64,000 bases of DNA from Actinostola sp. cb2023. Lineage: Eukaryota > Cnidaria > Anthozoa > Actiniaria > Actinostolidae. The stretch is taken from positions 83,501 through 147,500 of the forward strand of contig JAUJYZ010000860.1 in assembly GCA_033675265.1 (NCBI GenBank). The letters are read 5' to 3'. Made by a program: the position numbers and the translations under genes. Each line of letters starts with the position of its first letter. Within the stretch, counting starts at the first letter, position 1. Positions 2,757 to 45,405 of the stretch are shown one piece after another. The notes beneath the pieces are model-generated. The model was not told the DNA's origin. It saw only the letters and a program-made list of their open reading frames with translations, and did no database searches.

Positions 2757-3798
2757 TCACGATTCGTTGAATCTAGACATTGCCTAGAATCAGGATGAAA
2801 AGGAATTACAGAAAGGTTATTGTTCCCATGGGCGCATTCATTTCAAGAAATCTAGACAGGATACGCACGCACGCACGCAGGAAGGAAGGAAGGAAGGAAG
2901 GAAGGAAGGAAGGAAGGAAGGAAGGAAGGAAGGAAGGAAGGAAGGAAGGAAGGAAGGAAGGAAGGAAGGAAGAAGGAAGGAAGGAAGGAAGGGAAGGAAG
3001 GAAGGAAGGAAGGAAGGAAGGAAGGAAGGAAGGAAGGAAGGAAGGAAGGAAGGAAGGAAGGAAGGAAGGAAGGAAGGAAGGAAGGAAGGAAGGAAGGAAG
3101 GAAGGAAGGAAGGAAGGAAGGAAGGAAGGGAAGGAAGGAAGGAAGGGAAGGAAGGAAGGAAGGAAGGAAGGAAGGGAAGGAAGGAAGGAAGGAAGGAAGG
3201 AAGGAAGGAAGGAAGGAAGGAAGGAAGGAAGGAAGGAAGGAAACAAACAAACGAGTTTCGCAGTAGCCCATCATTGCTTTCCGAAAGAGCTAAGTTACGA
3301 TTACTTGTTTTACCAATTTTTGTCGTTTTTCTCTGGGTGTTTCAGCACCAGTTACTGAGCCGTAGGAACTCCCTGCCGATCCAAGACCCGCGTACTGGGT
3401 TCTCATTTGCGCCTGTGGATGAAATAACAAAGAACGAATTAGTAGTAATCATAGAAGTGCTATGTGTCCAAATCAAAAACAAGCAATCCGCCATGTTTTC
3501 TCCCCAAAATAATCCCATAATGCATCTAAAGAGAATTCGTGCGTCGTAGCACGTTGCATTTTTATACGAACATCTTCGAGTTTTAATTGGACTGATCGTT
3601 ACCTTGATAGGATCCACAATCCCTTGTCCATCTTTGCCTAGGCCAGTACCTTGGCTCCATCCCATAGCCTACAAGAAACAGAACGATATTGTCAAATAGC
3701 TTTAATCTAAGAGAACAAAATAGGCTCCTCTTACCCTTAGCATTTGATTGCCTATGTTCTCTGAACCGATTCCTGTTTTTGTCGGCTGTTCATATTTT
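2757..3798 (-). CDS. RBM5: RBM5/10 exons 21-24: G-patch and C-terminus
   Basis: Exon 21 (3798-3735) encodes KYEQPTKTGIGSENIGNQML. Exon 22 (3668-3603) encodes AMGWSQGTGLGKDGQGI, the G-patch core. Exon 23 (3412-3305) encodes YAGLGSAGSSYGSVTGAE. Exon 24 (2783-2757) encodes AMSRFNES and the TGA stop. The ending corresponds to KAMFARFTEME in human RBM5. The G-patch activates DEAH helicases such as DHX15. GGAA repeats fill the last intron. Confidence 0.93.
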
Positions 3799-3967
3799 CT
3801 GTAAAAGATGTGACAAACGGGATGAAAAATGGCGGTCAGACAGAAGCACCGACGAACAAGATAAACAAAATTCCAATGTTTGACAAAGAAAACACCTGTC
3901 CCTCACATTATTATTATTACCATTTATTTATTATTCAAGTGAAACGATATAATTAATACGACTTTTC

Positions 3968-3998
<31 letters not shown>

Positions 3999-6900
3999 CG
4001 TTATTTTATATCTTTTATTTTCACTTGTATACAGGGATTTGCAAAAATTCTGTAAAAGCATTATATATCAATATATCGAGTGCATTGTGGGTAATTTCCA
4101 TCATAAAATGGCTGAATAAGCCCTCTAAAGTTAAAAAATTTCAATTGTTTTTTCGCATACATACTACAGAGGCTAATTGGGTTGATCTTCAGGTTTATAA
4201 TAATAGCTAAAATCAAAGAATTAGGATTATGCAAATTACTATATATCGATATATCGACATATTAGATTTTACAGAATTTTTGACAGATTAAAGATTTAGA
4301 CAAGGGAATTGCCATGCTTGATTCTAGCACTTACGATGTTGGTTGGAATGGTTTACGAGTAAAAGTATGAGCACTTACGATGTTGGTTGGAATGGTTTAC
4401 GCTTTCTACTGGGAGCGGGAGGAGTAAAAGTATTGAGCACTTACGATGTTGGTTGGAATGGTTTACGCTTTCTACTGGGAGCGGGAGGAGTAAAAGTACT
4501 GAGCACTTACGATGTTGGTTGGAATGGTTTACGCTTTCTACTGGGAGCGGGAGGAGTAAAAGTACTGAGCACTTACGATGTTGGTTGGAATGGTTTACGC
4601 TTTCTACTGGGAGCGGGAGGAGTAAAAGTACTGAGCATTTACGATGTTGGTTGGAATGGTTTACGCTTTCTATTGGGAGCGGGAGGAGTAAAAGTACTGA
4701 GCACTTACGATGTTGGTTGGAATGGTTTACGCTTTCTACTGGGAGCGGGAGGAGTAAAAGTACTGAGCATTTACGATGTTGGTTGGAATGGTTTACGCTT
4801 TCTACTGGGAGCGGGAGGAGTAAAAGTACTGAGCATTTACGATGTTGGTTGGAATGGTTTACGCTTTCTACTGGGAGCGGGAGGAGTAAAAGTACTGAGC
4901 ACTTACGATGTTGGTTGGAATGGTTTACGAGTAAAAGTACTGAGCATTTACGATGTTGGTTGGAATGGTTTACGCTTTCTACTGGGAGCGGGAGGAGTAA
5001 AAGTACTGAACATTTACGATGTTGGTTGGAATGGTTTACGCTTTCTATTGGGAGCGGGAGGAGTAAAAGTACTGAGCACTTACGATGTTGGTTGGAATGG
5101 TTTACGCTTTCTACTGGGAGCGGGAGGAGTAAAAGTACTGAGCACTTACGATGTTGGTTGGAATGGTTTACGCTTTCTACTGGGAGCGGAGGAGTAAAAG
5201 TACTGAGCACTTACGATGTTGGTTGGAATGGTTTACGCTTTCTACTGGGAGCGGGAGGAGTAAAAGTACTGAGCACTTACGATGTTGGTTGGAATGGTTT
5301 ACGCTTTCTATTGGGAGCGGGAGGAGTAAAAGTATTGAGCCCTTACGATGTTGGTTGGAATGGTTTACGCTTTCTACTGGGAGCGGGAGGAGTAAAAGTA
5401 CTGAGCATTTACGATGTTGGTTGGAATGGTTTACGCTTTCTACTGGGAGCGGGAGGAGTAAAAGTACTGAGCACTTACGATGTTGGTTGGAATGGTTTAC
5501 GCTTTCTACTGGGAGCGGGAGGAATAAAAGTACTGAGCACTTACGATGTTGGTTGGAATGGTTTACGAGTAAAAGTATGAGCACTTACGATGTTGGTTGG
5601 AATGGTTTACGCTTTCTACTGGGAGCGGGAGGAGTAAAAGTACTGAGCACTTACGATGTTGGTTGGAATGGTTTACGCTTTCTACTGGGAGCGGGAGGAG
5701 TAAAAGTACTGCCGATATCCGGTTGGTTGTATTTTGCTCTTCGTTCCTTCGCTCTGTCTCTGTACTTGGACTGTAGATTGAATCAGAAGTCACAATATTT
5801 ACGAATACAAACAATCTAGTAATAGGAAAAGTACTCCAATCCTATTTAAAACTATGGTTCCGAGATTATATTTTTAATTATTTTAAAGGAAACTAGTGAG
5901 CAGAACAGAGAAGCAACAGAAAATGCATTGCATTTTTTGTCTTCGGTATCAGTTCAAAATATATGCTTGTTTTCATTCCTCTATCCACGATGACCTTATT
6001 ACGAGTGAAATCCATGGATGCTTTCAACATCGTAGTCAGGGCCGTACACAGCACAGGGGGGTACAGGGGGGGGGGGGGGGGGGGGGGGGGGCAGTTGCCA
6101 CCTAGCAAGGCGAAAAAGATACCAAAAAGTACTGAGAACTGTACTATTATTTTTATTTATTTTTTGCTGTTAATAAAATACGTACTGCCCCTTCTCGAAT
6201 TTTGGGTTATGTACGGCCCTGTTAGTTAGATTTGCTTGGGCTTGTCAAGTGAAGAATTGCAAAAGTTTTATAATGTGTTTATGGAGTACATCTCTCTCTC
6301 GTCGTTCAATCTCGTCCCGTTGTTTGTCTGTCATGTTCATCTTCTTGTGTATGTCGATATTTTGCTGAAAAGAGATAAACAAACTGCATTAGAAACACAA
6401 GTGTAGTGTGGCTAAAGGAATAAACGAGTGACTGAATGAAAGGATGGAAAAAGAAATGAGAAACGGAACAAATGAAGCAAACAAACGAGGAAGAAACAGA
6501 CGGAGCAAGGCGTGGGGAAAGTGGAAAAAAACAGAGAGTGAAGGAGGGAAGAGGGAAAAGGAGGATGGAAGAGAGGACGGGGAAAAAGAGCAGAGGGAAG
6601 AGATGACAGAAGAATAACAGAAGGGAGGAAATAAGGAGTAAAGAGTATAAGAAGAACACGAGTAAAACGGAGAGGGAAGGAGGAAAGTTAAAAAAGGAGA
6701 GGGGAAGATAGGGAGAGAGGAAGATAGGGAGAGGAAGATAGGGAGAGGAAGATAGGGAGAGAGGAAGATAGGGAGAGAGGAAGATAGGGAGAGAGGAAGA
6801 TAGGGAGAGAGGAAGATAGGGAGAGAGGAAGATAGGGAGAGAGGAAGATAGGGAGAGAGAAGATAGGGAGATAGGAAGATAGGGAGAGAGGAAGATAGGG

Positions 6901-9900
6901 AGAGAGGAAGATAGGGAGAGAGGAAGATAGGGAGAGAGGAAGATAGGGAGAGAGGAAGATAGGGAGAGAGGAAGATAGGGAGAGAGGAAGATAGGGAGAG
7001 AGGAAGATAGGGAGAGAGGAAGATAGGGAGAGAGGAAGATAGGGAGAGAGGAAGATAGGGAGAGAGGAAGATAGGGAGAAGATGGAATATAAAAGAGAGA
7101 AAGGAAGCAAGAACAGAGAAGTGGATAGTATTAGTTTACAAGCAGACAGACACACACCTTATGTAGATCTGAGAACTGTATGTGTCTGTCCAATCCCTCC
7201 TTATTTGGGAACTGTCGTTTGCAAAGAAGACACGCCATTAACTTGAAGTCTGCAAACGTTTGGTCAGAAGTGAAAACTGGTTCTTCTGGCTCTGGATCAG
7301 AGTCATCATCTTCACCATACTCTGCTATAAGACTAGACCACTTTGAACCTTATAAACACAACAACGAGCATGTTAGCATAAGGGGATCATTATCTTCACC
7401 ATACTCTGCTATAAGACTAGACCACTTTGAACCTTATAAACACAACAAATCCAACGAGCATGTTAGCATAAGGGGATCATTATCTTCACCATACTCTGCT
7501 ATAAGACTAGACCACTTTGAACCTTATAAACACAACAAATCCAACGAGCATGTTAGCATAAGGGGATCATTATCTTCACCATACTCTGCTATAAGACTAG
7601 ACCACTTTGAACCTTATAAACACAACAAATCCAACGAGCATGTTAGCATAAGGGGACCATTATCTTCATCCTCTTCATTCTCCTTCTCATACAATACAAT
7701 AATACAATACAATAACTTTATTTATACACGATTAGGATTAAAGCTGAAAAGCTTGTGGGGTCGTGTGTAAAACAATGGAAATAAAAATAAAAACTATGTA
7801 TATAAAATTCTCATGACTATGGACAGACAGACAGACAACAGACAGACAGACAAACAACAGACAGGCAACAGACAACAGACAGGCAACAGACATGCAGACA
7901 TGCAGACAGGCAAGAAAGACAGACAGACAGACAGATAGACAGACAGACAACAGACAGACAGACAGACAACAGACAGACAGGCAACAGACAGACAACAGAC
8001 AGGCAACAGACAGACAGACAAACAGACAACAGACAGGCAACAGACAGGCAACAAGACAGGCAACAGACAGGCAACAAGACAGGCAACAGACAGGCAACAG
8101 ACAGACAGGCAACAAGACAGGCAACAAGACAGGCAACAGACAGGCAACAAGACAGGCAACAGACAGACAACAGACAGGCAACAGACAGGCAACAGACAGA
8201 CAACAAGACAGGCAACAGACAGGCAACAGACAGACAACAGACAGGCAACAAGACAGGCAACAAGACAGGCAACAGACAGACAGGCAACAAGACAGGCAAC
8301 AGACAGGCAACAGACAGACAACAAGACAGGCAACAAGACAGGCAACAGACAGACAGGCAACAAGACAGGCAACAGACAGGCAACAGACAGGCAACAAGAC
8401 AGGCAACAGACAGACAACAGACAGGCAACAGACAGGCAACAGACAGACAACAAGACAGGCAACAGACAGGCAACAGACAGACAACAGACAGGCAACAAGA
8501 CAGGCAACAAGACAGGCAACAGACAGACAGGCAACAAGACAGGCAACAGACAGGCAACAGACAGACAACAAGACAGGCAACAAGACAGGCAACAGACAGA
8601 CAGGCAACAAGACAGACAGACAGACACAGACAGGCAACAGACAGGCAACAGACAGGCAACAAGACAGGCAAACAGACAGGCAACAGACAGGCAACAACAG
8701 ACAGGCAACAGACAGACAGGCAACAAGACAGGCAACAGACAGGCAACTGACAGGCAACAAGACAGGCAACAAGACAGGCAACAGACAGGCAACAGACAGG
8801 CAACAGACAGGCAACAGACAGGCAACAGACAGACAGACAGACAGGCAGACAGACAGGCAACAGACAGGCAACAGACAGGCAACAGACAGGCAACAGACAG
8901 GCAAACAGGCAACACAGACAGACAAACAGACAACAGACAGGCAACAAGACAGGCAACAAGACAGGCAACAAGACAGGCAACAGACAGGCAACAGACAGGC
9001 AACAGACAGGCAACAGACAGACAACAGACAGGCAACAGACAGGCAACAAGAGACAGGCAACAGACAGGCAACAGACAGGCAACAGACAGGCAACAGACAG
9101 GCAACAGACAGGCAACAGACAGGCAACAAGACAGGCAACAGACAGGCAACAGACAGGCAACAGACAGACAACAGACAGGCAACAGACAGACAACAGACAG
9201 GCAACAGACAGGCAACAGACAGACAACAGACAGGCAACAAGACAGGCAACAAGACAGGCAACAGACAGGCAACAGACAGGCAACAGACAGGCAACAGACA
9301 GGCAACAGACAGGCAACAGACAGGCAACAGACAGCCAACAGACAGGCAACAGACAGACAACAGACAGGCAACAGACAGACAACAGACAGGCAACAGACAG
9401 GCAACAGACATGCAGACAGACATGCAGACAGGCAGACAGGCAACAAGACAGGCAACAGACAGGCAACAGACAGACAACAGACAGGCAACAGACAGGCAAC
9501 AAGACAGGCAACAGACAGGCAACAGACAGACAACAGACAGGCAACAGACAGGCAACAGACAGGCAACAGACAGGCAACAGACAGACAACAGACAGGCAAC
9601 AGACAGGCAACAGACAGACAACAGACAGACAACAGACAGGCAACAGACAGGCAACAGACATGCAGACAGACATGCAGACAGGCAGACAGACAGGCAACAG
9701 ACAGGCAACAAGACAGGCAACAGACAGGCAACAGACAGGCAACAAGACAGGCAACAGACAGACAACAGACAGGCAACAGACAGGCAACAGACAGGCAACA
9801 GACAGGCAACAAGACAGGCAACAGACAGGCAACAAGACAGGCAACAGACAGACAGGCTACAAGACAGGCAACAGACAGACAACAGACAGGCAGACAGACA

Positions 9901-12900
9901 AACAACAGACACACGACAGGTAGACAGACAGACAAACAACAGACAGGCAGACAACAAACAGACAGACAGACAACAGACAAACAACGGACAGACAGACAAC
10001 AGACAGACAACAGACAGACAGACAGACAGACCAAGAAACGAAGAGTTCCTCTGCTGTACCTGGGGGAGGTTCCTCCTCCTCTTTGATTGGTTTGATTGGT
10101 ACAATCATGCCCGATAGTGGACTTGACATGACTTTTACAGACTCTACTGTTGCATCACTTGTAGTTGCTGCCTTATTGAGTACTGTTAATAGCTTAGGTG
10201 GTGGCAAAGTTGGCTTTTTGAATTCAGGTTCCTCAGCTGCAGCGGTTTTCTTCACGTCTTCAGAGGGTGGTTGGTGTTGTGCCTTTGCAGCGTTTACATT
10301 TCTGGCCCATCGCTCCATGTCCTTTGCAATCTAAGAATGTAATGCATTTAATAATTTGTCATTAGAGCAAAATAAAGGTTCGAGTCCAGCCGGACCATTA
10401 CTCAGGTTCTTAAAATACTTGAGGAGAAGGTGCTGCCTTTGTAATTACATCTACAAATGCTCAGACCTTCACGTGGCTCAGATGATCACATAAAATGGCG
10501 GTCCCGTCTCTCCACACTACTACACTTGAATAGGAGGGGGGGGGGGGGGGGGAAAAAAATAAAAAAATAAAATAAAAAGGAGGGACGTAAAAGAACCACG
10601 GAGGACGTAAACACACATCTGGCAGTGACCACCCTCAGTGTCTGCTCTCACTCTTATCGGTGTGGAAATGCAATTCAAGCGTTACCGATTAACATTCAGA
10701 ATTCAGATTCAGAAATAGTGCAATACCTTTTTGGCTTGTAGAGTTTTGGCTTTCTTTTGCTTTTCTATGTAAGAAGAAGAAGAAAAATTATTACTACTCT
10801 CTTAACTTGTCAATGAGTAACATTTAATATGGAGGTTAGGTGCCATTGTCTGCGGCAATCAGGCTAAGCAAGCAAAGGCAAGCAAGTTTACCATGGCAAA
10901 CCAAGCCAAGGGTCAAACCCACGTCACCTGTCACACTGAATTTTCAGTGGAAATTAGATACTTACCTACAACTGCAAAGAGCTAGAGAACAAAGCAACCA
11001 GAGAAGCAAGTGGGGTTCGGATCCCAGTTCTGACACCAAAATTCTCCAACGTACTGGCACGTGGGGGCCTCCCTTGCATTCCCCAAGTCTGCAAGTCCCT
11101 TAGTACAACCCCAATCACTACTACAACTCTTTGACATAAATGATTTATTAACAACTAAATAACACTTTATATACATATCTAACTCATGTAACGACTTGAA
11201 ATATCTTTGTGTCCATGCGTACGTTGGCAGTGGCGATCCTTTAGAATTAATACGGCCACTCATCATACAGAAATCCAGAAACTTTGTCTGTGCACTGGAG
11301 TAGGTTCCTGATATAAGAAGTTCAAGCATTGGTCTTCTAAGTCACTTGAGAGAGCTGGGAGATTAGCTGAGGTGGTACTTGCACAGGGTAACTCTTTGCT
11401 GCTGGGGCTAGGGTGCGGAAGGCCTGCCAATCGTAGCGAGATAAAGCATCAACAATTCCATTATGGATACTGGGAACATGAACAGCTGTGAATGAAAAAT
11501 TATGGCGAGCTGCGAGCAGAAGGAGACTTCTTAACAAGTGCATTATGTTGGGTTCCTTTGAGGTGAGCGAGTTCAAGATGTGAACAACTGCTTCGTTGTT
11601 GACGCGGAATAGAATGCGCTTGCGAGACCAACGTGAGCTCCAAATGTGAGCTGAGAGGACAACAGCAAATACCTCCTTGTAGACAATGGATAGATCCAAT
11701 TGGTGGGGGAGCCATGGGCCACTAAACCATTCAGACTCCAAGAAGATGCCATATCCAAGGGTCCCCGAGGCATCGGACCCAACGTGATAATTGGGCAAGG
11801 GCTCCAAGTCTGGGAAACAGAAGAAACTCACTCCATTCCAAGTACTGACAAATTCTTTCCACCAAGAGAGGTCTTTTTTACATTCGGCATTGAGGCGAAT
11901 AGGATGCTTGTCACTGCGGAAACAGCTAAGAAGGTCAATCATGCGACAAAGGAATGCACGGCCAGGCCAGACGATTTTACAAGCATGGTGTAAGGTGCCA
12001 ATTAAGGACTGCAGATCTTTTTTAATACACCATTTACGCTGTGACCAGTCATCTAGAGTTTGTTGAACTGCCAATAGCTTATCAGTGGGCAGGCGTGCGA
12101 TCTCGGCTGCTGTGTCTAGTTCTATTCCAAGAACAACCATGCTGGTTGTTGGTCCAACACATTTCTGAGGGTGTAGGGGAAGACCTAGTTCAGAGGTCAC
12201 GGCTGTAACTTTGTTGAGGTTGTTCAAGCAGACAAGTGAATTGCTCGGGCCAGCAAGAATAAAATCATCCTTATAATGCATGATATACTCAATGTCATAA
12301 TTGTGGAGGAGAATCCATTCGACCATCTCTGCCACAGCATTGGAAATATGGTGAGCAGAACAGAGTCCAAAGGGCAGCACCAAATCCATGTAGTACTTTT
12401 TCTTCCATTTCATACCGAGCAGGTAGCGGTCGAAAGGATTAACCGGGATATTTCTGAAAGCACTTTCAATGTCAAATTTAGCTAATAGAGCCCCTTTGCC
12501 AAAGACGGCAAGCATCTTTACAACATCGTCAATTTTATTATACTGTAGAGAACATGAAGCTTGATCGATGCCATCGTTGACTTTGTGGCCAGGAGGAGAA
12601 GGTAGATCAATAAGTAAGCGCCATTCTTTGGGTGGGCCTTTCTTACGGATGACCCCAAAAGCACATGTTTGTAGAGAAGGTAAAGGCGGATAATCAAACG
12701 GCCCGGCAACGCGACCAAGACAGACTTCATTTTTAAGGTAAGTGTCGACGATGCCAGCATGTTGATATGCAGATGGCTTGTTTTTCTTTGATTGCTTGAG
12801 GGTAATTGGAGACTCAAAACCAAGTCTGAAGCCATGTAAAATTCCTTGTAAAACATATAAAACCTGAGCCTTGTCTGGATGGGATTGGAGCTCGTGGCAA

Positions 12901-13351
12901 AACTTGGGATAGTTGAGACGACAAATTGACGCCACAGTTGGCAGGATAACTGGCAAATCTAGAATAACAAAGGCAACAAATCTAGGCAACAAAGCAACCA
13001 GCGAAGCGAGCCAGCCAAGACACCACAAGATCTGAGCAATCATGTGCATGCATACTCATAGTCTGCAGCATGAGCCTCGCCGTTAACTAATTGATTAATG
13101 AATAATCACATGTTACATGTACTTGAAGTTTTGCTTACATGTGATTTTTAACATAGAAAATGTTGTACCTTTAGCAGCTAAAGAATCAGCAGCTTCTGTT
13201 GATGGAGTCGGTGTACTTGTAGTATTTGTTGTGGGTGTTGTTGTCGTCGTGGGTGTTGAGGATGATGGTTTTGTTGTAGCATCTGTAGTGGTAGGAATGG
13301 CAGACCTGTAAATCAAACAACAAACATTTAAACATCATAAATAAAAAGTTA

Positions 13352-13392
<41 letters not shown>

Positions 13393-13409
13393 GTTTATTA
13401 TTGTTATTA

Positions 13410-13460
<51 letters not shown>

Positions 13461-14059
13461 TTATTATTATATTGAACAGTCCAAGTAACAATCCAAGCGA
13501 TTATTTCAAAATTTGTGTAAATAAGGATTTTTTATCTATTTTTTATCTCTTATTTTAAATTTGTTTTGAGAAATAAAGTTATCATTATCATTATTATTAT
13601 CCTTATTATAAACAATCTACACAAAAAAGGTCTGTGATTACATGTAGCAGGCTATAGCTAAGGAGTAGTTGGCCCAACAACAAGGCAAGATGTGCAGTAG
13701 TATTAGGACTAGATGGTGCAGTGCTATCCCTTAAGTGACTCCTTTGGGGTGAATAGGGGTTTCGTTCAGGAAAAGGGCACCTCGATTGATATGCTAAAAG
13801 CAAGCTGTGTTTACAGCCAGTCAATATTATAATTTATAGAGTGCCTTGTCCTGAATGACATCCCTGGGTGAATAAATTAAAGAAGCTACAACACAGAAAA
13901 CATGTATACTTACCCATCGGCGGCAACAGGTACATATTGCTGAATATTGGTATCCCAGTAGGAGTATTGCCCTGTTGTGCCGTTATAGTAATACTGAAAC
14001 AAACAATGCAAGTATGAAATTAGGCAAGTAAATTTCTGCCTTGGTATCTAGTACCAGGA

Positions 14060-14110
<51 letters not shown>

Positions 14111-17100
14111 GATATTGCTTTCTTCTTCCCTGACCTAACCAGGGATCTCCTTCCCTGACTTAACCAGGGTTCACCTTCCCTGACATAACCAGGGTTCTCC
14201 TTCCCTGATCTAACCAGGGATCTCCTTCCCTGACCTAACCAGGGATCTCCTTCCCTGACCTAACCAGGGTTCTCCTTCCCTGTCCTAACCAGGGTTCTCC
14301 TTCCCTGACCTAACCAGGGATCTCCTTCCCTGACCTAACCAGGGTTCTCCTTCCCTGACCTAACCAGGGATCTCCTTCCCTGACCTAACCAGGGTTCTCC
14401 TTCCCTGATCTAACCAGGGTTCTCCTTCCCTGACCTAACCAGGGTTCTCCTTCCCTGACCTAACCAGGGTTCTCCTTCCCTGACCTAACCAGGGTCTCCT
14501 TCCCTGACCTAACCAGGGTCTCCTTCCCTGACCTAACCAGGGTTCTCCTTTCCTGACCTAACCAGGGATAACCAGGGATCTCCTTCCCTGACCTAACCAG
14601 GGTCTCCTTCCCTGACCTAACCAGGGTTCTCCTTCCCTGACCTAACCAGGGTCTCCTTCCCTGACCTAACCAGGGTTCTCCTTCCCTGATCTAACCAGGG
14701 TTCTCCTTCCCTGATCTAACCAGGGTTCTCCTTCCCTGACCTAACCAGGGTTCTCCTTCCCTGACCTAACCAGGGTTCTCCTTCCCTGACCTAACCAGAG
14801 CTCTCCTTCCCTGACCTAACCAGGGTTCTTCTTCCCTGACCTAACCAGGGATCTCCTTCCCTGACCTAACCAGGGTTCTTCTTCCCTGACCTAACCAGGG
14901 TTCTTCTTCCCTGACCTAACCAGGGTTCTTCTTCCCTGACCTAACCAGGATTCTCCTTCCCTGACCTAACCAGAGATCTCATTTGTTGAAACAGTTGTAC
15001 TAAATATATGCAATCAGTAAATCAGTATCATACCTGTGTTGTAGAATCGTAGTACAGCCCTGAGACTGAGTCATAGTAATACCCTGATAATGTGTCATAT
15101 ACAAAGTTGGTCATTGGAGGGGCTGCAAATGGTAGTGCAGCAGAGGAATTAGATGTGGAGGCGGTGGAAGCAGTTGAACTGGAAGATGCTGTTTCTGAAG
15201 TTGAATAAATGCAATAAATAGTTAAAAAAAATACTGTTTTAACCCACGTCAATGTATCTAGCTAATTGGGAGCACAACTCTCGTGAGAGAGACAATTGAG
15301 GGAGGAAAACTGGAGTTCCCAGAGAAAAACCCTTGAAGCAAGGAAAACGGATGAACAAAGTCGATACACATGTAATGCCTGGTCCAGGAATTCTTTGCAG
15401 TGGTACAATTGCAAAGACAAATTAAATTACTGTATATAAAAAATATTATGAGACCAGACAGACATCCCTCTAAATGTGGACACCTCTCTTCGATGGACAT
15501 CTTTGTGTGGTCTATGGTTTTACTAAACATTTTCTCTCACAGACATCTCACTACATGGTTAAACTGGAGGATCAATATGTACTACTGTAACGGGGACTGG
15601 GTCGAGTAATGGCAGAGTGAGGTTCACAAAAAAACTCCCTCCGATAATTTGTTCTTATATGACGGGTAAATGGCCGAATGTATAGAAAATCTTAAAGCTA
15701 GAAGAAGAAATAGATCCAATCTGTCGTCAGAAAGTTCAATAGAATCTCCTGAAGCAAAAAAAACAAGGAACTCGAGTGTTGAGAGAATTTCAGATAACGA
15801 AGGCGACGAGGTGTTAACAGCATTGAATATGGCCGGGAATCTCAACGAAAAACTTCAACAGATCTTAAAGAAACTAGAGAAATTAGACACAATCGAGAAA
15901 TCGACATCCAAAATCGAGTCCAGCCTGAAGGAACTAGAGATTAGAATGGCGAAAATGGAAGAGTTTAAAATCACGGCAAGCAAGGATATCCAAGAATTAA
16001 AGGACGGTCTTTCCTATGTAGGGGATCAAGTTCAAGAAGCGAAGCTTGACGAAGTGAGTAAGAACCTAACACAGATTGACGAATTGAAGAAAGAAAGCTC
16101 CTCAAAACTTGAAGAATTAACCACCCAGAACTTATATCTTGAAGCTTATTCAAGGAGAGAAAACATTAAATTCTTTAATATTGAGGAAACACCTCGTGAA
16201 AATGTCGAAGAGGTTCTTCGTGACTTCTTGGAGGAGGAACTTGGTCACCAAGATGCAAGAGAGATCGAAATTCAAAGGGTGCATCGGGTTGGAAAGACTA
16301 AAGGAGACAAGCCAAGACCCATTTTGGCAAGATTTCTAAGGTATAAGGACTGCGAATCTATCTTATCCATGGGACGCCGTCTTCGCGACACGGATTACCA
16401 AATGTTTACAGACCTCCCTTATGAGATAATACGAAGAAGAAGACTACAGATGGATAATTTGAGGACTGCGAAACTAAATAACATTCCAGCATACTTTAGC
16501 AAGTCGCAACCGGACAAGCTGTACATAAGAGGAAAGGTTTGGCCCGTAGGCAGAGAGTTAGAAGTGATCTCAGTACGATACCCTAAAGTTTAAATATCCT
16601 AAAGAGGAGGGAAAATCATTCGTTTCAGTATTACGTCAAAATCTGGCTCTGATAAGTTACACCAGTTGTTAATGTATGTATATGTTGTGGTGTATTGTAC
16701 ATTATTAAGCCAGTCCTTATTTTTGTCAATAATATGTTGCTTAAAAGATTCTAAAACTTTAGATATTTATGTTAAGTGCTACAGTAGGAATCTATTCGTC
16801 CGGCGTAATTATGAATACGTTTAACTTTAATATATTATCACTCAACGTCCGGGGCCTAAGGGAATACAAGAAAAACAGAAAGTTATTCAACTGGATTGTT
16901 AAACACAAAGGAGACCGTGGTATTACTTTTCTACAAGAAACACATAGTACTCCAGACATTGAGGATGATTGGTCTCGTAGAACAAAGGGGGAATTAGTTA
17001 TGTCGCACGGGAGTTCAAACAGCAAAGGAGCGGCTATTTTGTTTGGTGAAAAACTGAATTTTGCTATCAAACAAAGCATAATAGATAAAAATGGCAGGTA

Positions 17101-20100
17101 TGTAATCATACTGAGTGAAATACAAGGGACTAGTTTTATGTTAGTTAACACTTATGCTCCAAACGATGAAAAAAGCCAAGTAACTTTAATTGAAGATATA
17201 GTTTGAAAAGATGAATACAATTGATTGTCCCGTGGAAACATATACCATTTGGGGAGGTGATTTTAACTTTATTTTTGATTTAGATCTTGAAGCATCAGGC
17301 GGTAATCCTAATCTTAAATTACGCTCTATTGAGACAATGAAGACAATTATGAATGATCTAGATCTTTGCGATATATGGAGAATACGCAATCCAACTACTA
17401 AACGTTTTACATGGCGCGGAACAGCACAAGGTAAAAACAGTAATCATAACCATTATCTGCACCGTAGATTAGATTTCTTTTTCATATCCGATGAGTTGCA
17501 GCCCTTCGTGGAAGATTGTGATATTATCCCGGCACCATCTACAGATCATTCAGCTCTCTCAATAAATCTCAAATCTCAAAGCATTTCAGGAAGAAAGCAA
17601 AGGGCCATCTTTTTGGAAATTTAACAACTCTCTTGCCGAAAATGAAGAATACATCACAAAGCTTAAAACAACGATCGATGCTATTAAAAAATCATTGAAT
17701 AGCGAAAATATTTTGAATTCACAAGTAAGATGGGAACTAATAAAGTATGAAGTTCGTAAATTTACTATAACATTTTCAAAATCTCTGGCAAAAAAACGTA
17801 GAACCGAATACCAAAAACTTGAATCAGAAATTAAACAGATAGAAAATACTAATGGATGGGAGAAAGAAGAAAACATGATTGTAGAACATGATAAACTCAT
17901 CAAATTACTCGAAGAAAGAAGTAACTATATTACTGAGGGAATTATTATCAGGTCTAAAGCAAAATGGTATGAATTAGGAGAGAAAAGCAATAAGTATTTT
18001 TTAACGCTAGAGAAACGAAACAAAGCTAAAACACACATTAAAAAAAATTGTGGAACCAAATAATACGGAAATTACGCAACCAAAGAAAATTCTCGGAAAA
18101 ATATATGATCACTTCAGTAAAATATATTTATCCAGATCGGATAAAACAGAAAATGAGTGTTTGGAATTTCTGTCACAGATTGATATACCAAAACTTTCAG
18201 AAGAAGATAAAGAGGCATGTGATGGTGAGATAACTATCGATGAATGTCACTATGCACTAAAACAAATGGGTACGTCTAAGACGCCAGGTAATGACGGACT
18301 GACTAAGGAATTTTATATGTGCATGTGGTCAGAATTAAAAGATGATTTAGTAAGATGTTTGAATGACGGTTATAAAAATGGTTCCTTAACTACATCCCAG
18401 AAACAAATAGTTATTACCTTACTTGAAAAACCTGGTAAGGATAACAGGCTATTGGATTCATGGCGACCGATTAGTTTGATAAATGTTGATGTAAAAATAT
18501 GCAGCAAGGTTTTAAGCAATAGGATAACTGAGTTATTACCTTCAATAATTCATCCAGATCAAGCGGCTTTTATTAAAAATAGAACAATTGATGAACCAAT
18601 AAGACTTATAGATGATATAATGGATTATGCCAGAAAGGAAAACATATCTTTGATTTTATTCGCGGCCGACTTTGAAAAAGCGTTTGATACTATCGAACAT
18701 AACTTTGTATATGGAGTATTAAAAGGTTTTGGTTTTGGAGAAGGCTTTATTAAATGGATTAAAATTCTTTTAGAAAACAACCAAAGCTGCGTAATGAATA
18801 ATGGACTAGCAACAAATTTTTTCCCAGTTTTTAGAGGAACAAAACAAGGAGACCCTATATCGCCATATATTTTAATCTTGGTAATTGAAATAATGGCTTT
18901 AATGATGAGAAAATGTAAGGATATTGAAGGAATTAAGATAAAAAATAAACATATTAAGCTGGTATTATTTGCAGATGATACAACTTTCTTTTTGAAAGAT
19001 ATTAATTCGTTGGATATCGTGTTAAATCAATTAGAAATGTATAAACAATTTTCGTCACTAAAGAGATCACTTAACAAAATCAGAGGCAGGGTGGATTGGA
19101 AGAAATAAGGATGAAAGTGAGCAAAATATTAAGTGGATAAACTTTTATGAAAAGGGTATCAAAATTTTAGGTATCTTTTTCTCCTACAACAAGATACTGC
19201 ACTACAATAATAATTTTAAACGCATATTAACGGAGTTTAAAACTACTTTATCTCTATGGCGTACCCGCACCTTAACTCTTTATGGAAAAATTCAAGTAGT
19301 TCGTTCATTAGCACTGTCTAAATTACTCTACGTATGTTCAAAGATTCATGTGAATGATGAATTCATTAAACTGGTAGAAAGCAATATCAAGGATTTCATT
19401 TGGAACGGAAAGAAGCCTAAGATAAAATATCGAACTTTAATTGGCGAATATACAGACGGTGGTTTAAAGTTACCAGATTTTTGTTCATGCATTAAAGCGA
19501 ATCGTATTAAATTGGCTATAAAATTAATGATATCGGAAGAAAGAACTTGGAATACTATTCCATTGTTTTATATCTGGATTCTATAGGCGGTGTTGAGTCA
19601 ATACGAAATAACTTCGATAAAAAAAGAATTCCAGATTCGATTCCTATTATTTACAAAATTGCCCTATTAAGCTGGGCAGAGATTTCTAGTATTATTGTAG
19701 ACAATAATCCAGATCTAATATTAGAACAACATCTATGGAATAATAAACACATTAAAATACAAAGCAAAGCGGTATTTTTTAAAACATTTTTTGAACTTAA
19801 TATTAATAGAGTTGTTGACCTTTGTAACGAACAGTATGAATTTAAGTGGGAACATGTAGGGAGCATGGGATTGCAGGACAACGATTTTATGAGATGGGCA
19901 GGTATTGTTCATGCCATACCATCTGAATGGAAAACTGCTTTGAAAAATAATGATAACACATTCAAAAACGAAGGGCTAGCGCGTAGATATTTATATCTAG
20001 GTAACAAAAAAATTGATCTTACAAAGAGTAATACTAAATTGATTTATCAATGGTTAGTTAGTAAACAAAGTTCAAAGTACCAACATCCCAAAGTCATATA

Positions 20101-20776
20101 TGTAAACGAATTGGTCAAGATACGCCTCTAGAGTGGGAAGTAATTTATGGTAGAATTTATAAAACTACAATAGATTCCTACTGTAGATTTTTTCAATATA
20201 AAATACTAAACAACTGTCTGTACTTAAATAAGGATTTGAATCGTTTTAAATTAATTGAATATTCTAGTTGTTCATTCTGTTCTCTTTACCCTGAAACTAT
20301 AGATCATTTATTTGTTGAATGTATAGATTCAAAAAACTATTACTTAGAAATTAGATCGTGGTTAGAAAAATACAATATTACTCTTCCTGAGTCTAACAGA
20401 TCCAACATTATTTTAGGAATTGAAGAAAATGTATCTAATTATGTAATTTTAATGTACAAGTTAACTATATATAAGGCAAGAGAAAAAGGAAAGGTTCCTT
20501 CATTATCTCTCTTTAAAAACTTTCTAGTTTATTCAGAGAAAATTGAATATATGGTGGCTATGGCTAAAAATAAATTATTTTCGCACACATAAAAAAATGG
20601 GAAAAATTAAAAACTGCATTAGAATCTGAGTAAAAATAATGTTGGAACTGGCGTTATTGTAATTAATGTAAATTATGTGTAAATTTGTAGTTCATTCGTA
20701 ATTCTGTGTGTATTCAGTGTAGTATAGATATATACATGTAAATTTTGTACAAACAAAGCATCAATAATAATAATTA

Positions 20777-20809
<33 letters not shown>

Positions 20810-23800
20810 AATAAAAAAATAAAAAAAAAATTAAAAAAATAAAAAAAAAAAAAAAAAAAATGTACTACTGTAACATTTACCTTGCTGGGCCGTGCCACTT
20901 GTTAGGGGCTAATAGAAGAAAAAGTAAAGAATGTCCATAAATATTGACTGTAACACTCAGTGATACAAATATAGAACAGATTTCACGATTATGAAAAGTT
21001 ACGGCATGGACGTGCTGCATGACTTGACCATGTTATATATATATGATTATAAACAAATCCTTGTCGTGCCATGATACTGACAGTGCTCTACAAGCATCAA
21101 GAGTTCCAGACTTTCAGTATGCACACAATGTATTATTATTACAAAGGAAAAGTGAGCACCAATTCTAGACACAGGGAGCCCAAGCTATGTTTTTGCTCAC
21201 TTGGTGCTCACTTTTCCTTTGTAATAATCTCAAAATGCATTGTGCTCGGCCCCGGAAGTCTGGAACACTTGATGCTTGTATTACCATGTACCATGTACAG
21301 CCTACATTTACCATCTACTAGTTCTAACCTGTTGGTACTGGGATGAGTAGGATGATTGAGATGCTGATTGTGCCTGTGCAATGGCCATTGCAGCAGCAGC
21401 TGAGTTATTCTGCTGTGGAGTGCTGGACCATTGTGCTTGTTCTATTGCTGCTGTTGCCACATTGCTAACAACACAACATAAAGGTCTGTATAAACTACTC
21501 AGCTAGCAGACAGGTCAATAATGTTATTTTTTTTAAATATATATATATATATTTTTTTTCAAGATTCGCCCATAAGGCAGGTGTTGTACAGTAGGACACG
21601 AAGTCCCCTTTAAAATACATTACACCACGTCCCACCACAGGGAGCCCAAGCATAAATTCAGTAAAAAAATAAAATTCGAAATAAAGTATTTTTTTCCGCT
21701 ATACACCTTTGTTGTCTGTTAACTTAACCTGCCTGGTGATTTTTTTTTCAGAATTTTTTTTTTTCTCGGACCAGTAAGGAAAAATGAAAAGGGTGGACAC
21801 TCCACTTCGATTATCGATTCGAAATGCCCAAATCGCTCGGGGAAATACGATTTTTTTGCTATAAATACTCAACTTATCGGCTGCAAACTCCCACAACATA
21901 TAATCAGATACCTATTCTTCTATCTCGTACTCATTGAAGAGCGAATTTCAGATTAGTTGGGAAATAAATCGCCAGCGAATTCGAAACTATTTTCAAAACT
22001 AATGCGTACCGAGGCGAATCCGTGCCGTTGGCACGAGAAAAAAAAAATTCTGAAAAAAAATCACCAGGCAGGTTAAGTTAACAGACAACAAAGGTGTATA
22101 GCGGAAAAAAATACTTTATTTCGAATTTTATTTTTTTACTGAATTTATGCTTGGGCTCCCTGTGGTCCCACCCAATAAGAAGGTTACCCAGTATACCCGA
22201 CCCCTGATGAATTCCCAATATGTTTGCACTAATATAGGAATAATTTATTTGACAGGTGATCTATCTGTTAGTTGATTAGGAGGTTGGTGTTGCAGGTGAT
22301 GATAGGACATGTAAGTGAACAGAACAACTACATGTAGTCAGTCAGTGATTCTAGTGGACTGCATCAGTAAATCAGTCAAAAGTCAGTCAGTCTGTCTGTC
22401 AGTAAATCAGTCAGTCAGTCAATCAGTCACAGAGATGGTCATTCCATCAGTGATTCAGTCAGTCAATCAATCAATCAGTCAGTCAGTCAGTCAGTCAGTC
22501 AATCAGTCACAGAGTTGGTCAGTCCATCAGTACACGGCTCAAAGGGAGAGTACTTTGCAATTAATTTTAATTTTAGTGATTTTGATTCCGTGTTTAAATA
22601 AAATTCATTCATTCATTCATTCATTCATTCATTCATTCATTCATTCATTCATTCATTCATTCATTCATTCATTCATTCATTCATTCATTCATCAGTGATT
22701 CAGTCAGTCAGTCACAGAGTTGGCCAGTCCATCAGTGATTCAGTCAGTGATTCAGTCAATCAGTCAGTCAGTCAGTCAATCAGTCACAGAGATGGTCAGT
22801 CCATCAGTGATTCAGTCAGTCAGTAAAAAAGACAGTCAGTCCATCAGTTATTCAGTGAGACAGACAGTCATTGAGTCATCAAGTCAGTCAATCAGTCAGT
22901 CAATAAAAAAGACAGTCAGTCCATCAGTGATTCAGTGAGACAGACAGTCATTGAGTCATCAAGTCAGTCAATCAGTCAGTCAATAAAAAAGACAGTCAGT
23001 CCATCAGTGATTCAATGAGACAGACAGTCATTGAGTCATCAAGTCAGTCAATCAGTCAGTCAGTAAAAAAGACAGTCAGTCCATCAGTGATTCAGTGAGA
23101 CAGACAGTCATTGAGTCATCAAGTCAGTCAATCAGTCAGTCAATAAAAAAGACAGTCAGTCCATCAGTGATTCAATGAGACAGACAGTCATTGAGTCATC
23201 AAGTCAGTCAATCAGTCAGTCAGTAAAAAAGACAGTCAGTCCATCAGTGATTCAGTGAGACAGACAGTCATTGAGTCATCAAGTCAGTCAATCAGTCAGT
23301 CAGTAAAAACGACAGTCAGTCCATCAGTGATTCAATGAGACAGACAGTCATTGAGTCATCAAGTCAGTCAATCAGTCACTCAGTAAAAAAGACAGTCAGT
23401 CCATCAGTGATTCAGTGAGACAGACAGTCATTGAGTCATCAAGTCAGTCAATCAGTCAGTCAATAAAAAAGACAGTCAGTCCATCAGTTATTCAGCGAGA
23501 CAGACAGTCATTGAGTCATCAAGTCAATTATAGTTCTTGTACCTTGGTTTACTAGCTGGCGCTGGTTCACTGTTCTTAGCATACAATGTATTAATAATGC
23601 GGCCATCTATCTCAAATGGTGGATTCATACTTGATAGCTCTTCTAAGAAATTGGTGGCATCCTGTAAAAAGAGACACAAGCACATGCATGTTTAAACTAG
23701 ACTTTCTTATGTGTACAGCGACCCAGTTTTCTTGTACATTCTATTTACTAAACATAATTAAAGTTGAAGCGAATGTCGATGCAAAATCAAGACATGGCAT

Positions 23801-26800
23801 AGTGAGTAGATTTTCAAGTTATGGTACATGTACATTGTATCTCCAAAAACTAAGGCTATGTTTATGACCAGACTATAGGATTTTGAAACCAGTACAAATT
23901 TCCACAGGAATATCTCCATGCACTCCACCAGTTGTACTCCCATCTGTTGTTTACACAAGATCACGAGAACTGGTCTATAACTCCCACTGTTAGTAATCCT
24001 CTCTACTGTCAAACTATCTCTTTACCTCTATAGAAGCGAGTTCAACAAAACAGAAGCCTCTTGACGTGCTGGTCAATTTGTCCCTTATTAGACGGATGTC
24101 GTAAATGGGTAAAGTAGTTATTGATGACAGCATCGTGCGAACCTGTCAATCAAAATCATACAATGTAAAAACCATTTGACTGATAAATTAAGGTTTTGAG
24201 TCAGACATGGTAAACATACTCGAAGACCATTTTACTGATAATTATCAATAATAATATTATTATTATTATTTGTAATTTGTTTTGAGAAATAAAGTTATTA
24301 TTATTATTTATATTATTATTATTTTCTTAATTTTTATTATTTTTGGATTAGGATTATTTCAGTTGTAAAGTGCTTTGTAAGTTATCTATGAAAGCGCTAT
24401 ATAAATAAAGTTATTACTTCTATTGTACATTATCCCTCCTGCTGACTCAATAGCAATAAGGTATGGGAATAGACTCATACGTCCAGCATTTCCCCCTTCA
24501 CTAACTCCCCCAATCCTCATAATCCAATCCCCATTCCTAACCTTATGGTCGGGTCCATACCTATAAAATATGCCCCCGATACTCATCATAAATTTAACAA
24601 TTTTGAAACGCATATAAACATATTAGTGAAAAGCACTTGTGAAACCAGTCAAGTTATTCTGTCTTTGATAAAGTTCTGATAAGTTTAAAGACATCATTGC
24701 CAACAGATCACCGGCCAGCTCCCCCCGGTAACAGCACTTGATTTAACCCGAGATATTGGTTCGTTCTTGCACATAACGACAGAGTCCAAATAAATTCGTT
24801 GAGCCATCCCGCAATCTTCGTCAATGTGTGGTTAAAAAGAAGACCCTCCTTTTCTGGGAAATAAAGGATTTCCTGGCACTTAACATGGCCTAAATCTCCT
24901 GCCCTATCGCCTGCAAAGAACATAGTTTTCAGGAAGGTCTGGTCTCTGGCTAACAACAGATCATTAATGAAGAAAGGCTCAGCTTGCAAGGGCAAAATCC
25001 TTGCTTCCAATAATTGTTCCACCCTCACAGCAGACAAATACTCTTTTACTTTCCTCGATGCTGCTGGATTCCCATATCCCGGAAGGCCCGATATGGCCGA
25101 GTCCCTCCCTAAATCACTCACAACTTGCCAATCATGGAGGTTTCTCTTTCTTCCAAACCAATACATGTCGAACAATGTACTTTGTTTTACCTGCGCTGTC
25201 CTTCCAAATTAGAAAACACTTTTCAAACCAAGGGTGAAAAGATGAGAACATGGAACGTAATACAAAGTGCAGCCTCAGCTGCGCTCCGACTGTCACGAAG
25301 GGCAGTCGGGTGAGACCAAAATCCCTCATCCGTAAAAAGTTCCCCAATTAACCTGTCATCTATGTATAATGAGCAAACCACACCTAAGTTTCGAAGGTAT
25401 CTCAAGGCCACACTACCCACTGATTGATAAATAAACAGATAATTTTTCCAACCAAATGGCAAAGTGGTGTTCACATACCAGCAACCTTCCCACTCAAAAC
25501 CGACATAAGTCCGACTCCTTCGTCAACAATATATGGTCATAACCAGAATTATCATCCAGCTTTGACATAAAGGACTCCAGGTAGACGTACCTTGGAACTT
25601 CGGCGAGCTTATCTAAAGAAAATGGAGTATCAATCATCCACAAATTGAGAAACCGAGCATCGAGACAAAGATGCGGCTTGGATGGTTCAACTGTGAGGAG
25701 TAAGACCAGCCAAAGGGGATTCAACGACACCTACTTTACCCCAAACCCTGACGGCAGCAGTTAACAGGTGACTTGATATAGACTCGGTCACAAATTCTAC
25801 AAAACTATTACAAGAAATATGGTACCGGAACCTTTTCCGCTGTGGCAAGCAACTATCATAATAACTACCCTTGAAAATCCCTTTGAAAGGGAGAAAAAAG
25901 TCACAAAAGTTCACTCCATTGTCGATATAACCTTGAATAGTGTCATGGTCTTTGTAATCGGTCAATACGACCTCCCATTGAACTCTCCTTAGTTTTGTGG
26001 CTCATTGCACCGCATAAGGACAAAAACCCTTTCCCTTATCATGAAACACTTGCATCTGGAAATCACATAAAATAAAGGGAATAAACAACCCAACACGTAG
26101 GAGATTAATAATATAACCATAACCAAAAAAGCAACAGGGAAAACCCCCACCCAGACTTAGAGAAGATGACTACCAACCGCCTGATGAATCGAGACACAAG
26201 GGCTGCCTTTTTAGACATACGCTTGCGAAGTCAACTCCTAAAGCCCAAAACGAGGAAAAAAACAAACAAACAACAAAACAAAATTGGAACTTCCATCCCC
26301 CCAGTAGTATGTATATGGGAATTAATAAAATAAATACCACACTCCCGAATAAATGATAGTGCACACAAAACAACATTTATTGCCTCTGTAATTAAACCTT
26401 TTACGTTTTACACGAGCGGGCAAAGTGGCCATACTGGCCACAGGCATAACACATGATACGACTGGGAGCTCTCTGACGTCGTCTAAATGGTAACTCATCA
26501 TTCCCTGATGGACTATGTCTTCTAGCCAAAGCTGTCAATGCCGAGTAGGGGTCAAAGAGCCCAGCCGGGCAAATAAGCTGCTGGAGGGAAGTAACAGCGT
26601 TGTCCACTAGCGCGATACTTGCAGAATCTCTTAGCTCCTTTAGCTCCTTCTGGAGCTTCGCCATGGGAGAATCCTACATAAATAGAAAACGTAACACTCA
26701 GCCAGTATTGAGCACAGAACAACTCAAATTCCATAGATGTTATGCTATAACAATGCCAACAATAAAATACCCACAAGCATGAGTAAATAGAAACAGACAC

Positions 26801-29800
26801 CTACATTCTCCAACGTCAAACCACACAGGTCTTTCTTCAAGTCACAAAGCTACTGAGCTTTTCCCAGGGCCACACAGACACACCCAGCCATATTCCTGGT
26901 GACACCCAATCACGCCGTTTCCTATTCTCTGGAGTCACACAAGACACTCCCGATTTCTATTCCACAGAGTCACAGATGCACCTGGCTTCCATTCTCTAAG
27001 GTCCAGGTTTTCTGGAATCACACAAATACGCCCAACCACTATTCTCGATCTGAGGTCACAAAGACTAGCCTAACTTCTATTGATGGGGTCACACAGATGC
27101 GCCCAACTAATTCTTGATCGGGGTCACAAAGACTCATCCAACTTCTGTATTCAACTGTATTATCTGGGGTCACATAGACATGCCCAACTTAGTACTATGC
27201 CAATCAGGGATCACACAGATTCGCCCGGCTTGTATTATTTGGGGTTACATAGACACGCCCAGCTACTATCCCTGGAATAAACACAGGAAAACACGTCCAA
27301 CTACCATTCTCGATCCGGGGTCACAGAGACTCGCCCGGTTTTATTCTCTAGGATCACATCAACAATATTGCACATTCCATTCTATAAAGCAAACAACGCC
27401 ATTCGAGAAAATAACTGCTCAACTCCAGCAACCTGGAGAAATACTCCAGCAACCTGGAGAAATAGTTAACAATCACTCAAACAAATACTAATTGAATCTC
27501 AACAGACTTCAACAAAACACGCACATTATACTGTGAATTCTGGACCGGCCCAACAGCCGTAGAATCCTCGATAGAAATCCCACCCGAAGCTATTACACAG
27601 ACACTGACAGGTTTTGTGCCGCCTCAACAGGTGGATTCTGAGGCAGAATAGGCAGCACAGCCTGTTGAATATCAGTAGCATGAACAGCAGAAGGCTGTGC
27701 TACCGGTGGATCTGTATCATCTCGACTTGTATCACCCATCGCGATCTTGGTGAACTGACACATTTACATAATTAAGTCTACCATATATAATGCTCATTAC
27801 ATCATCACACGGGATAATAATAATAATAATAATAACATTTATTTGTATAGCGCAAATTCAACATAACGTTTTCAAATGCGCTTTACAACCGATGGAGGAC
27901 TTTTTCGGGCTGCATATGAAGGCGCCTATGGCAGCAGAGCAGCTTATAATCATGAAGAGTTAGTATGTTATTATGTTATGCCTCCAATTTGAAGTAGGCT
28001 GTTGAACTGGGTAACAATCCCCTACTCTTACGAAGAGTTCAACAGGTTCTTTTAATGTCCCCCGTGAAACAGGTTAATTAATTAGCACAAAATATCTAGG
28101 TGAAATATACTCAAATGCGCATCACAAATTATATCAATAAATGAATAAATAATAATCATATAAAGACACAATCTTACTGTTTCTTCATTGGTAAGGACAT
28201 CGAGGCCTTTCAAAATAAGAACTGCGGGAAAGAAATAATAATCAATGCACATAACTATTAGAGATCAGGGAAACGTGGACACAATGTTTCCTTAGGTGAG
28301 CAAACAAGTAGGGATGGAAATAATTAAGTTTCTGTCTCCTGGAAACAAAATAATGTTGTTTCTGAAACATATGTTGTATGTGCGAGCAAATGAGGGCACA
28401 AGATATATCCATTACCTTTGCATGGTGGATTGGAACTTTCTTTGTCATCAGCTGAAACTGTATCACACATTTACATGTAGTAATTAGTGATATTGATAGT
28501 TTATAATACATATATTGTTATTGTAGTTTTTTAGTATTGAGGGCTACTAGTTAATCAGTGTAAACTGTCATGTGCTACCCATGTTAAATAAATAAAGTCG
28601 TTATTATTATTATTATTATTATTAAAGATGCAATAGTTGTTTGTAGGTTGTGTTGTAATTCATAATAAGTAAACACTTACATGTATACACATTGTAACCC
28701 TGAAGATGAGCGCGTAGCTCGAAAGCTTGGTTTATTCCCAAAATAAATTCAAGGTCGACGAAACAAGTATTTACTTATTATAATATATAAGATGATAAAG
28801 ACTACATTGTACAATACATATTGTGTTACTATTCCTGCGACATGACCCTGCATTTAGTGCCCTTGTATGTAAAATATCTCTGCAATCCCCTTGTGCGTAG
28901 CAACATTAAAACCATCAGAAATCTAAGTGAAAGCCACAATACCTTCTTTAGGAGTTCCACAGGAAAAGCATGTCGTCCGTCTTCTTGATGAGAAATTCTG
29001 CGTCCCACACTACACAAAGAACAAGATGGCAGTGTTATTTTGTCTGAAAGATCAACGTGCACTCTGCAATGTGAAACTACTCGTGATAACAACTACATGG
29101 TAAGATACCTTGGGGCAATTCCAGTCCTTATCCTGTGCATTTTTAGGTCTGCTGTAATCTGCACCAATGGAGAATCCTTGGCAAATCAAACGACCCTGAT
29201 ATAATAGCATGGAATTCTATTAAGTTCAATGGACCAATAAGCATGAAATAAAGTATAAACTATTAGACTTACTTTAATATGATCCATCCATTGCTTAGCT
29301 GATTCCACAGTATCAAACTCAACAAAACCAAAGCCTCTTGTGTAACCTTGGTAACAAGATAGAGATGAATGCATAAATGAATAAACAAATGAATGAATGA
29401 ATAAACAAATGAATGAATGCATAAATGAATGCATAAATGAATAAACAAATGAATGAATGAATAAACAAATGAATGAATGAATAAATGAATGCATAAATGA
29501 ATAAACAAATGAATGAATGAATAAACAAATGAATGAATGAATAAACGAATGAATGAATAAACAAATGAATGAATGAATAAACAAATGAAGGAAACATCAT
29601 GTCACTACTGTTGTAATCTAATCTTCTTTACCTATCTTGTTTCTAACAATCCTGACATCTTTGAAGGCAACTTCTGCAGAATAAAGCTCTTCCAGAATCT
29701 ACAAATAAATGTTAAGGTGTAAAATAATAAAGACATGCATGTAGTTTATAAGTTAATCTAATAATACTGGGAAAAAAGAACAGGGATGGAGATTAGGAGG

Positions 29801-44779: not shown

Positions 44780-45405
44780 CTCTTTATATTAATGGAATAC
44801 TGACCACCATGATTGCCATTGTTGGTTCTATGTCCATGGAATACTGACCACCACGATTGCCATTGTTGGTTCTATGTCCATGGAATACTGACCACCATGA
44901 TTGCCATTGTTGGTTCTATGTCCATGGAATACTGACCACCACGATTGCCATTGTTGGTTCTATGTCCATGGAATACTTACCACCACGATTGCCATTGTTG
45001 GTTCTATGTCCATTGTATCACCAGTAACTCCATCCAGACTGTATTGACCTTGGATTTCTGTTATGCATGAATACTTACCTCCACGATTGCCATTGTTGGT
45101 TCTATGTCCATTGTATCATCAGTAACTCCATTCCAGACTGTATTGACCTTGGATTTCTGTTATGCATGAATACTTACCTCCACGATTGCCATTGTTGGTT
45201 CTATATCCATGGAATACTGACCACCACGATTGCCATTGTTGGTTCTTTGTCCATTGTATCATCAGTAACTCCATCCAGACTGCATTGATCTTGGATTTCT
45301 GTTATGCATGAATACTGACCACCACGATTGCCATTGTTGGTTCTATGTCCATGGAATACTGACCACCACTATTGTCATTGTTGGTTCTATGTCCATTGTT
45401 GCTGC
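44780..45405. repeat. 44-bp tandem repeat with longer compound units
   Basis: ccatggaatactgaccacca plus gattgccattgttggttc repeats every 44 bp. Some copies carry an extra block with ctccatccagactg and ggatttctgttatgcatgaa. Confidence 0.92.

Follow-up and report, generated by a model that had tools for sequence, protein, structure and literature searches.

What does it mean for a gene when one of its own 5' splice sites stands 22 times in tandem? The question is raised by a locus in the window analyzed here, a 64,000-nucleotide stretch of contig JAUJYZ010000860.1 of the sea anemone Actinostola sp. cb2023 (assembly GCA_033675265.1). In this window, a minisatellite crosses an exon/intron boundary of a splicing-factor gene. 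An initial annotation had noticed the array and proposed that its copy number could tune isoforms.

The host gene is RBM5/10, as had been proposed. Its joined protein has Pfam matches to RRM, RanBP2-type zinc finger, OCRE, and G-patch domains, in the order expected of an RBM5/RBM10 orthologue, and the human RBM5 chain 9ze0 matches two parts of it (5.1e-53 and 8.2e-56). Among 1454 homologues found, RBM5 of Nematostella vectensis ranks first, with 54% identity. Two proteins of stony corals and four unnamed proteins take the next six places. Over the aligned C-terminal part, the Nematostella protein shares 63% identity with that of Actinostola, and those six share 54-57%. We drew the gene model by eye, guided by splice signals and homology. 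It places 21 exon pieces on the minus strand (2757..31854) and is incomplete: the phases of neighboring exons do not match around the OCRE1 and K pieces, and small exons are therefore probably missing near the OCRE region. The exon of interest, E4, is the 17th piece (5655..5770, minus strand, 116 nt). Frame and collinearity with Nematostella RBM5 indicate that it encodes SKYRDRAKERRAKYNQPDIGSTFTPPAPSRKRKPFQPT(S), and its final 57 nt belong to the first repeat copy. The next exon, E5 (KYEQPTKTGIGSENIGNQMLR; 3735..3798, minus strand), begins the G-patch and joins the donor at 5654 in frame. We shifted the end of E5 by one base, to the donor AGG/GTAAGAGG, to keep the frame running; with this shift, no intron inferred in the gene is shorter than 66 nt (67 nt before it). 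The exon upstream of E4 has a very weak inferred donor at 6289 (minus strand, GAT/GTACTC; U1 pairing -0.7 kcal/mol).

A tandem-repeat scan and a listing of the units place the minisatellite at 4326..5711 on the minus strand; the top Tandem Repeats Finder row over 4326-5711 scores 2132 against a threshold of 50. The 22 copies initially counted were all recovered, but the span 4332..5770 first given for them was not, as 5770 is where the exon starts. Each full unit has 66 bp, namely 57 exonic nt (CAGTAC...ACATC) followed by the 9 intronic nt GTAAGTGCT. The unit had correctly been described as an exon end with its donor and a few intron bases, although its exonic part is longer than the 'about 48 nt' suggested. 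Every unit (22 of 22) ends in ACATC/GTAA and carries a donor, so that an authentic exon end and its 5' splice site are indeed repeated in tandem. With exon end, 5' splice site, and intron start in one unit, this is a boundary repeat of the type known from the human CBS gene. Eighteen units are 66 bp long and one is 65 bp; the other three (units 3, 13, and 22) are 44-45 bp long, having lost the pyrimidine tract and AG through an internal deletion of 21-22 nt. The donor reads GTAAGT in 15 units, GTAAAT in six, and GTAAGG in one. Full-length units differ from each other at an average of 1.3 of 66 positions, and 8 of the 22 units, including copy 1, are identical across 66 nt.

Such uniformity raises the question of whether the copy number is trustworthy. 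An array that is real in itself might have been expanded or collapsed during assembly, to which 1.4 kb of near-identical units would be prone. Furthermore, the array is reported once in the assembly, and there is thus no second haplotype for comparison; when the 66-bp unit was searched for across the 424-Mb assembly, at least 23 matches came up, and 23 of 23 lie inside 4326-5711. Against an artefact, the array contains 11 distinct unit types, and these are intermixed rather than repeated as one simple block. We consider a miscounted array very unlikely.

Which of the 22 donors ends the exon? Frame and homology point to that of copy 1 (GTAAGT, 5649..5654, minus strand). Splicing from this donor, at 5654, leaves the 116-nt exon open and joins it in frame to E5 at 3798. 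From any of donors 2-22, translation runs into the TAA within the first GTAAGT and so stops at exon codon 40, ahead of the G-patch. From the unit listing and the frame, these 21 sites are decoys (4326..5645, minus strand; 14 GTAAGT, six GTAAAT, and one GTAAGG). This agrees with two claims of the initial annotation: that only the first copy keeps the frame, and that every later copy reads into the TAA of GTAAGT and removes the G-patch. The product of copy-1 splicing, ...SRKRKPFQPTS-KYEQPTK..., is collinear with Nematostella ...NRKRKAGFTPTS-PYEQPTK..., where the segment is present in a single copy. The stretch from YRDRA to NIG measures 44-53 residues in 120 of 120 homologues among the matches listed and 54 residues in the Actinostola protein made by copy-1 splicing. 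These lengths fit copy-1 splicing, which indicates that the conserved product contains one repeat copy. As in CBS-type arrays, the first copy is the functional exon end by both frame and homology, with the remaining copies intronic. The productive mRNA is accordingly predicted from the sequence to use copy 1 and to give the ancestral protein. Between equal donors, the intron-proximal one is often preferred. Heavy decoy use would be predicted on that basis, which counts against the use of copy 1. Copy 2 matches copy 1 at all 66 nt, so that only position or exon length, and not the unit sequence, can explain why copy 1 would win. With 22 copies of the donor, eight of them in units identical across 66 nt, the array is a natural experiment on how the spliceosome chooses among identical donors by position alone.

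The initial annotation had described about 21 decoys of near-equal strength. This holds for the 14 that share the sequence of the real donor, all of which pair with the 5' end of U1 at -6.8 kcal/mol, as the real donor does. It does not hold for the six GTAAAT decoys, which are weaker both by U1 pairing (-1.9 kcal/mol) and by a donor matrix built from the 19 other inferred donors of the gene, a small set (1.9, compared with 2.9 for the real site). The GTAAGG decoy is weaker by U1 pairing (-5.1 kcal/mol) and slightly better by the matrix (3.3), which means that not all variant decoys rank lower than the real donor. The other inferred donors of the gene score 3.5-10.2 in the same 19-site matrix, in comparison to 2.9 for the real donor, whose low score is due to its poor exon side, ATC. 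Across the gene, 326 of 1957 GT positions score at least 2.9. With so low a score and so many equals, the real donor is therefore not a strong one. We also considered whether RNA structure hides the decoys. This was ruled out, because an array trimer folds at the level of shuffled sequence (-26.4 kcal/mol vs -25.7 +/- 3.8 kcal/mol for 100 mononucleotide shuffles).

Most probably, then, the array is a boundary minisatellite in which copy 1 provides the real exon end and copies 2-22 are mostly neutral passengers. In an anthozoan genome rich in minisatellites, a 66-bp segment made up of the 57-nt exon end and the 9-nt intron start would have been tandemly duplicated and then expanded to 22 copies through slippage or unequal exchange. 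Copies 2-22 would leave with the intron. Where a decoy was used, a premature stop before the G-patch would follow, and nonsense-mediated decay would be expected. We infer this mechanism of expansion from genomic sequence, together with donor usage in cells, decay, and neutrality. For the most part, the array appears to be a by-product of the genome's richness in repeats. Minisatellites of at least 100 bp (31 arrays) make up 10.0% of a 150-kb genome sample, which consists of 15 stretches chosen by contig number rather than drawn at random, two of them flanking the window, and includes 5,000 bases of N. Their share in the window is 23%.

The same gene carries a second array over a splice junction, which the initial annotation had missed. 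It has a 90-bp unit in about four copies (7303..7668, minus strand) and spans the 3' splice site of the ZnF2 exon (7158..7324, minus strand), with the acceptor ggtctagtcttatag/CAGAGTATGG inside the unit. The four acceptors share the same 15 nt and precede positions 7588, 7498, 7408, and 7324. Only the one before 7324 leads into an open frame, and this is where the exon was placed; the other three are decoys leading to a stop. Near-identical short repeats, GATGAAGATAATG and GGTGAAGATGATG, mark the edges of the array and could have served as a substrate for slippage. The 90-bp units also read CAGAGTATG/GTGAAG, so that in-frame micro-exons of 9 nt with introns of ~81 nt are formally possible. The two RBM5/10 arrays demonstrate that a minisatellite-rich genome can bear arrays over splice junctions.

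Do these arrays regulate the gene instead? The 21 decoy donors may compete with the real one and divert a fraction of transcripts to nonsense-mediated decay, in which case copy number would set RBM5/10 dosage, perhaps in an autoregulatory way. We regard this idea as coherent yet unlikely, although several observations are in its favor. Fourteen decoys share the sequence of the real donor, any decoy leads to a stop ahead of the G-patch, and the second array supplies acceptor decoys in the same gene. There is also a parallel within the gene family, where premature stops arise by splice choice: human RBM10 reportedly reduces both its own expression and that of RBM5 through splicing coupled to decay (PMC6547761). 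However, that loop, as the source describes it, runs by exon skipping and not by alternative donors, whereas the anemone arrays offer possible alternative donors and acceptors.

The units and the placement of arrays also count against a regulatory role. No conservation of the decoy splice signals is apparent across units. Substitutions occur at six positions when the 18 full-length units are compared, a count that omits the four shorter ones. Three of the six, namely +5, +6, and the G of the acceptor, are splice-critical, a class that comprises 9 of the 66 positions (hypergeometric test for three or more of six, P = 0.029, with small numbers, as only six positions vary). Substitutions thus fall on splice-critical positions, and there is no sign that the decoys are protected. 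A selective function inferred from decoy conservation was rejected on this count of three in six. Boundary overlap is likewise at chance level. The RBM5/10 gene has eight minisatellites of at least 100 bp and 40 modelled exon boundaries; two of the eight arrays overlap a boundary, compared with a mean of 3.1 under random placement (P for two or more = 0.90), although this random model takes no account of selection against arrays in exons. The idea that arrays specifically target splice junctions was therefore also rejected (2 of 8 vs 3.1 expected). Neither the 18 full-length units nor the boundary overlap in this one gene gives any sign of selection for decoys, and the proposal that array copy number tunes isoforms is not supported. 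A broader version, in which variable arrays of the gene's own 5' and 3' splice sites determine by their decoy number what share of transcripts is sent to decay, seems less likely still. If true, the dosage of a splicing factor would be a heritable, rapidly mutating repeat-length trait.

The closest precedent of the RBM5/10 array, which the initial annotation had not named, is the 31-bp variable number tandem repeat (VNTR) of human CBS, at the boundary of exon 13 and intron 13 (PMC1395315, PMC5188458). Its name, c.1444_1467+7(16_21), which we read as 24 exonic and 7 intronic nt, denotes 16-21 copies, and substitutions within units are described as possible (PMC2630376). Both repeats therefore combine an exon end with the donor side of an intron, with 57+9 nt in 22 copies in the anemone and 24+7 nt in 16-21 copies in CBS. 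They differ in gene, phylum, and unit, and polymorphism and an effect on activity are reported for CBS. There, more units are reported together with lower enzyme activity (PMC5188458), which favors a regulatory role for the RBM5/10 decoys. The second array also has its counterpart in CBS, namely 844ins68, where 68 bp across the junction of intron 7 with exon 8 are duplicated and, of two competing sites, one is strongly favored (PMC2630376). The source terms these sites donors, although a junction of intron 7 with exon 8 would be an acceptor. As in 844ins68, the 90-bp array duplicates an acceptor junction, but with about four copies rather than the one extra copy in CBS. The pair of arrays in RBM5/10 thus parallels the CBS pair of 31-bp VNTR and 844ins68.

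Could the copies, in contrast to neutral passengers, be exons? Each unit may act as a 30-nt micro-exon with its own acceptor and donor, adding in-frame RKRKPFQPTS repeats to the protein. The initial annotation had proposed that every unit has a pyrimidine tract and CAG; the acceptor-like CCCAG is in fact intact in 16 of 22 units and lost in 6, which leaves these six without an acceptor. Its arithmetic of 30-nt micro-exons and 36-nt introns is correct, as 14 pairs of a donor and the next acceptor enclose an intron of 36 nt and one pair an intron of 35 nt. The frame also works. Inclusion adds 10 residues per micro-exon and yields SRKRKPFQPTS repeats without a stop. Introns of 35-36 nt are, however, about half the length of the shortest intron inferred in the gene (66 nt). 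Longer introns, of 101-102 nt, which the initial annotation had not mentioned, are formally supplied by 12 pairs that skip one unit. The acceptors themselves are low-scoring. In a matrix from the gene's own 20 inferred acceptors, the score is 2.0 for 15 of the units and 3.3 for the sixteenth, close to the lower end of the range of those 20 (1.6-14.4, leave-one-out), and 453 of the 1476 AGs in the gene reach 2.0. Moreover, a 10-residue insertion finds no room in any of the 120 homologues among the matches listed. Unit-by-unit micro-exons are thus formally possible and unlikely, and an array acting as a generator of micro-exons appears highly improbable. The route as such has been described: in the potato RdRp gene, an intron was gained after tandem duplication across an intron/exon boundary, and such duplication is presented as a route to new introns (PMC4974935). 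In both cases, boundary duplication gives each new copy its splice signals. The potato case involved one duplication and a new intron that was detected, whereas the RBM5/10 array is a minisatellite in which separate splicing of any copy is hypothetical.

The window contains further repeats and coding stretches. An array at 44792-45399 (minus strand) has units of 44-99 bp with GGTAAGT or GGTCAGT and may be another boundary-type repeat. We rejected it as a third boundary array, because two open reading frames (ORFs) overlapping the array lack a Pfam match and no exon can be named. Nearby, a 3.6-kb array (46865-50459) consists of about 33 copies of a 109-bp unit. Within RBM5/10, a 2.2-kb array of ACAGACAGGCA type (7822-10031) lies just past the donor at 10059. 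Modelled introns of the gene also contain stretches of reverse-transcriptase elements at 11340-13055 (minus strand) and 15670-20592 (plus strand), in which the ORFs at 11340-13055 and 18011-19105 match PF00078. Last, an ORF at 35747-36124 (plus strand) matches a protein-kinase domain (PF00069, 3.5e-25) and is probably part of a neighboring gene.
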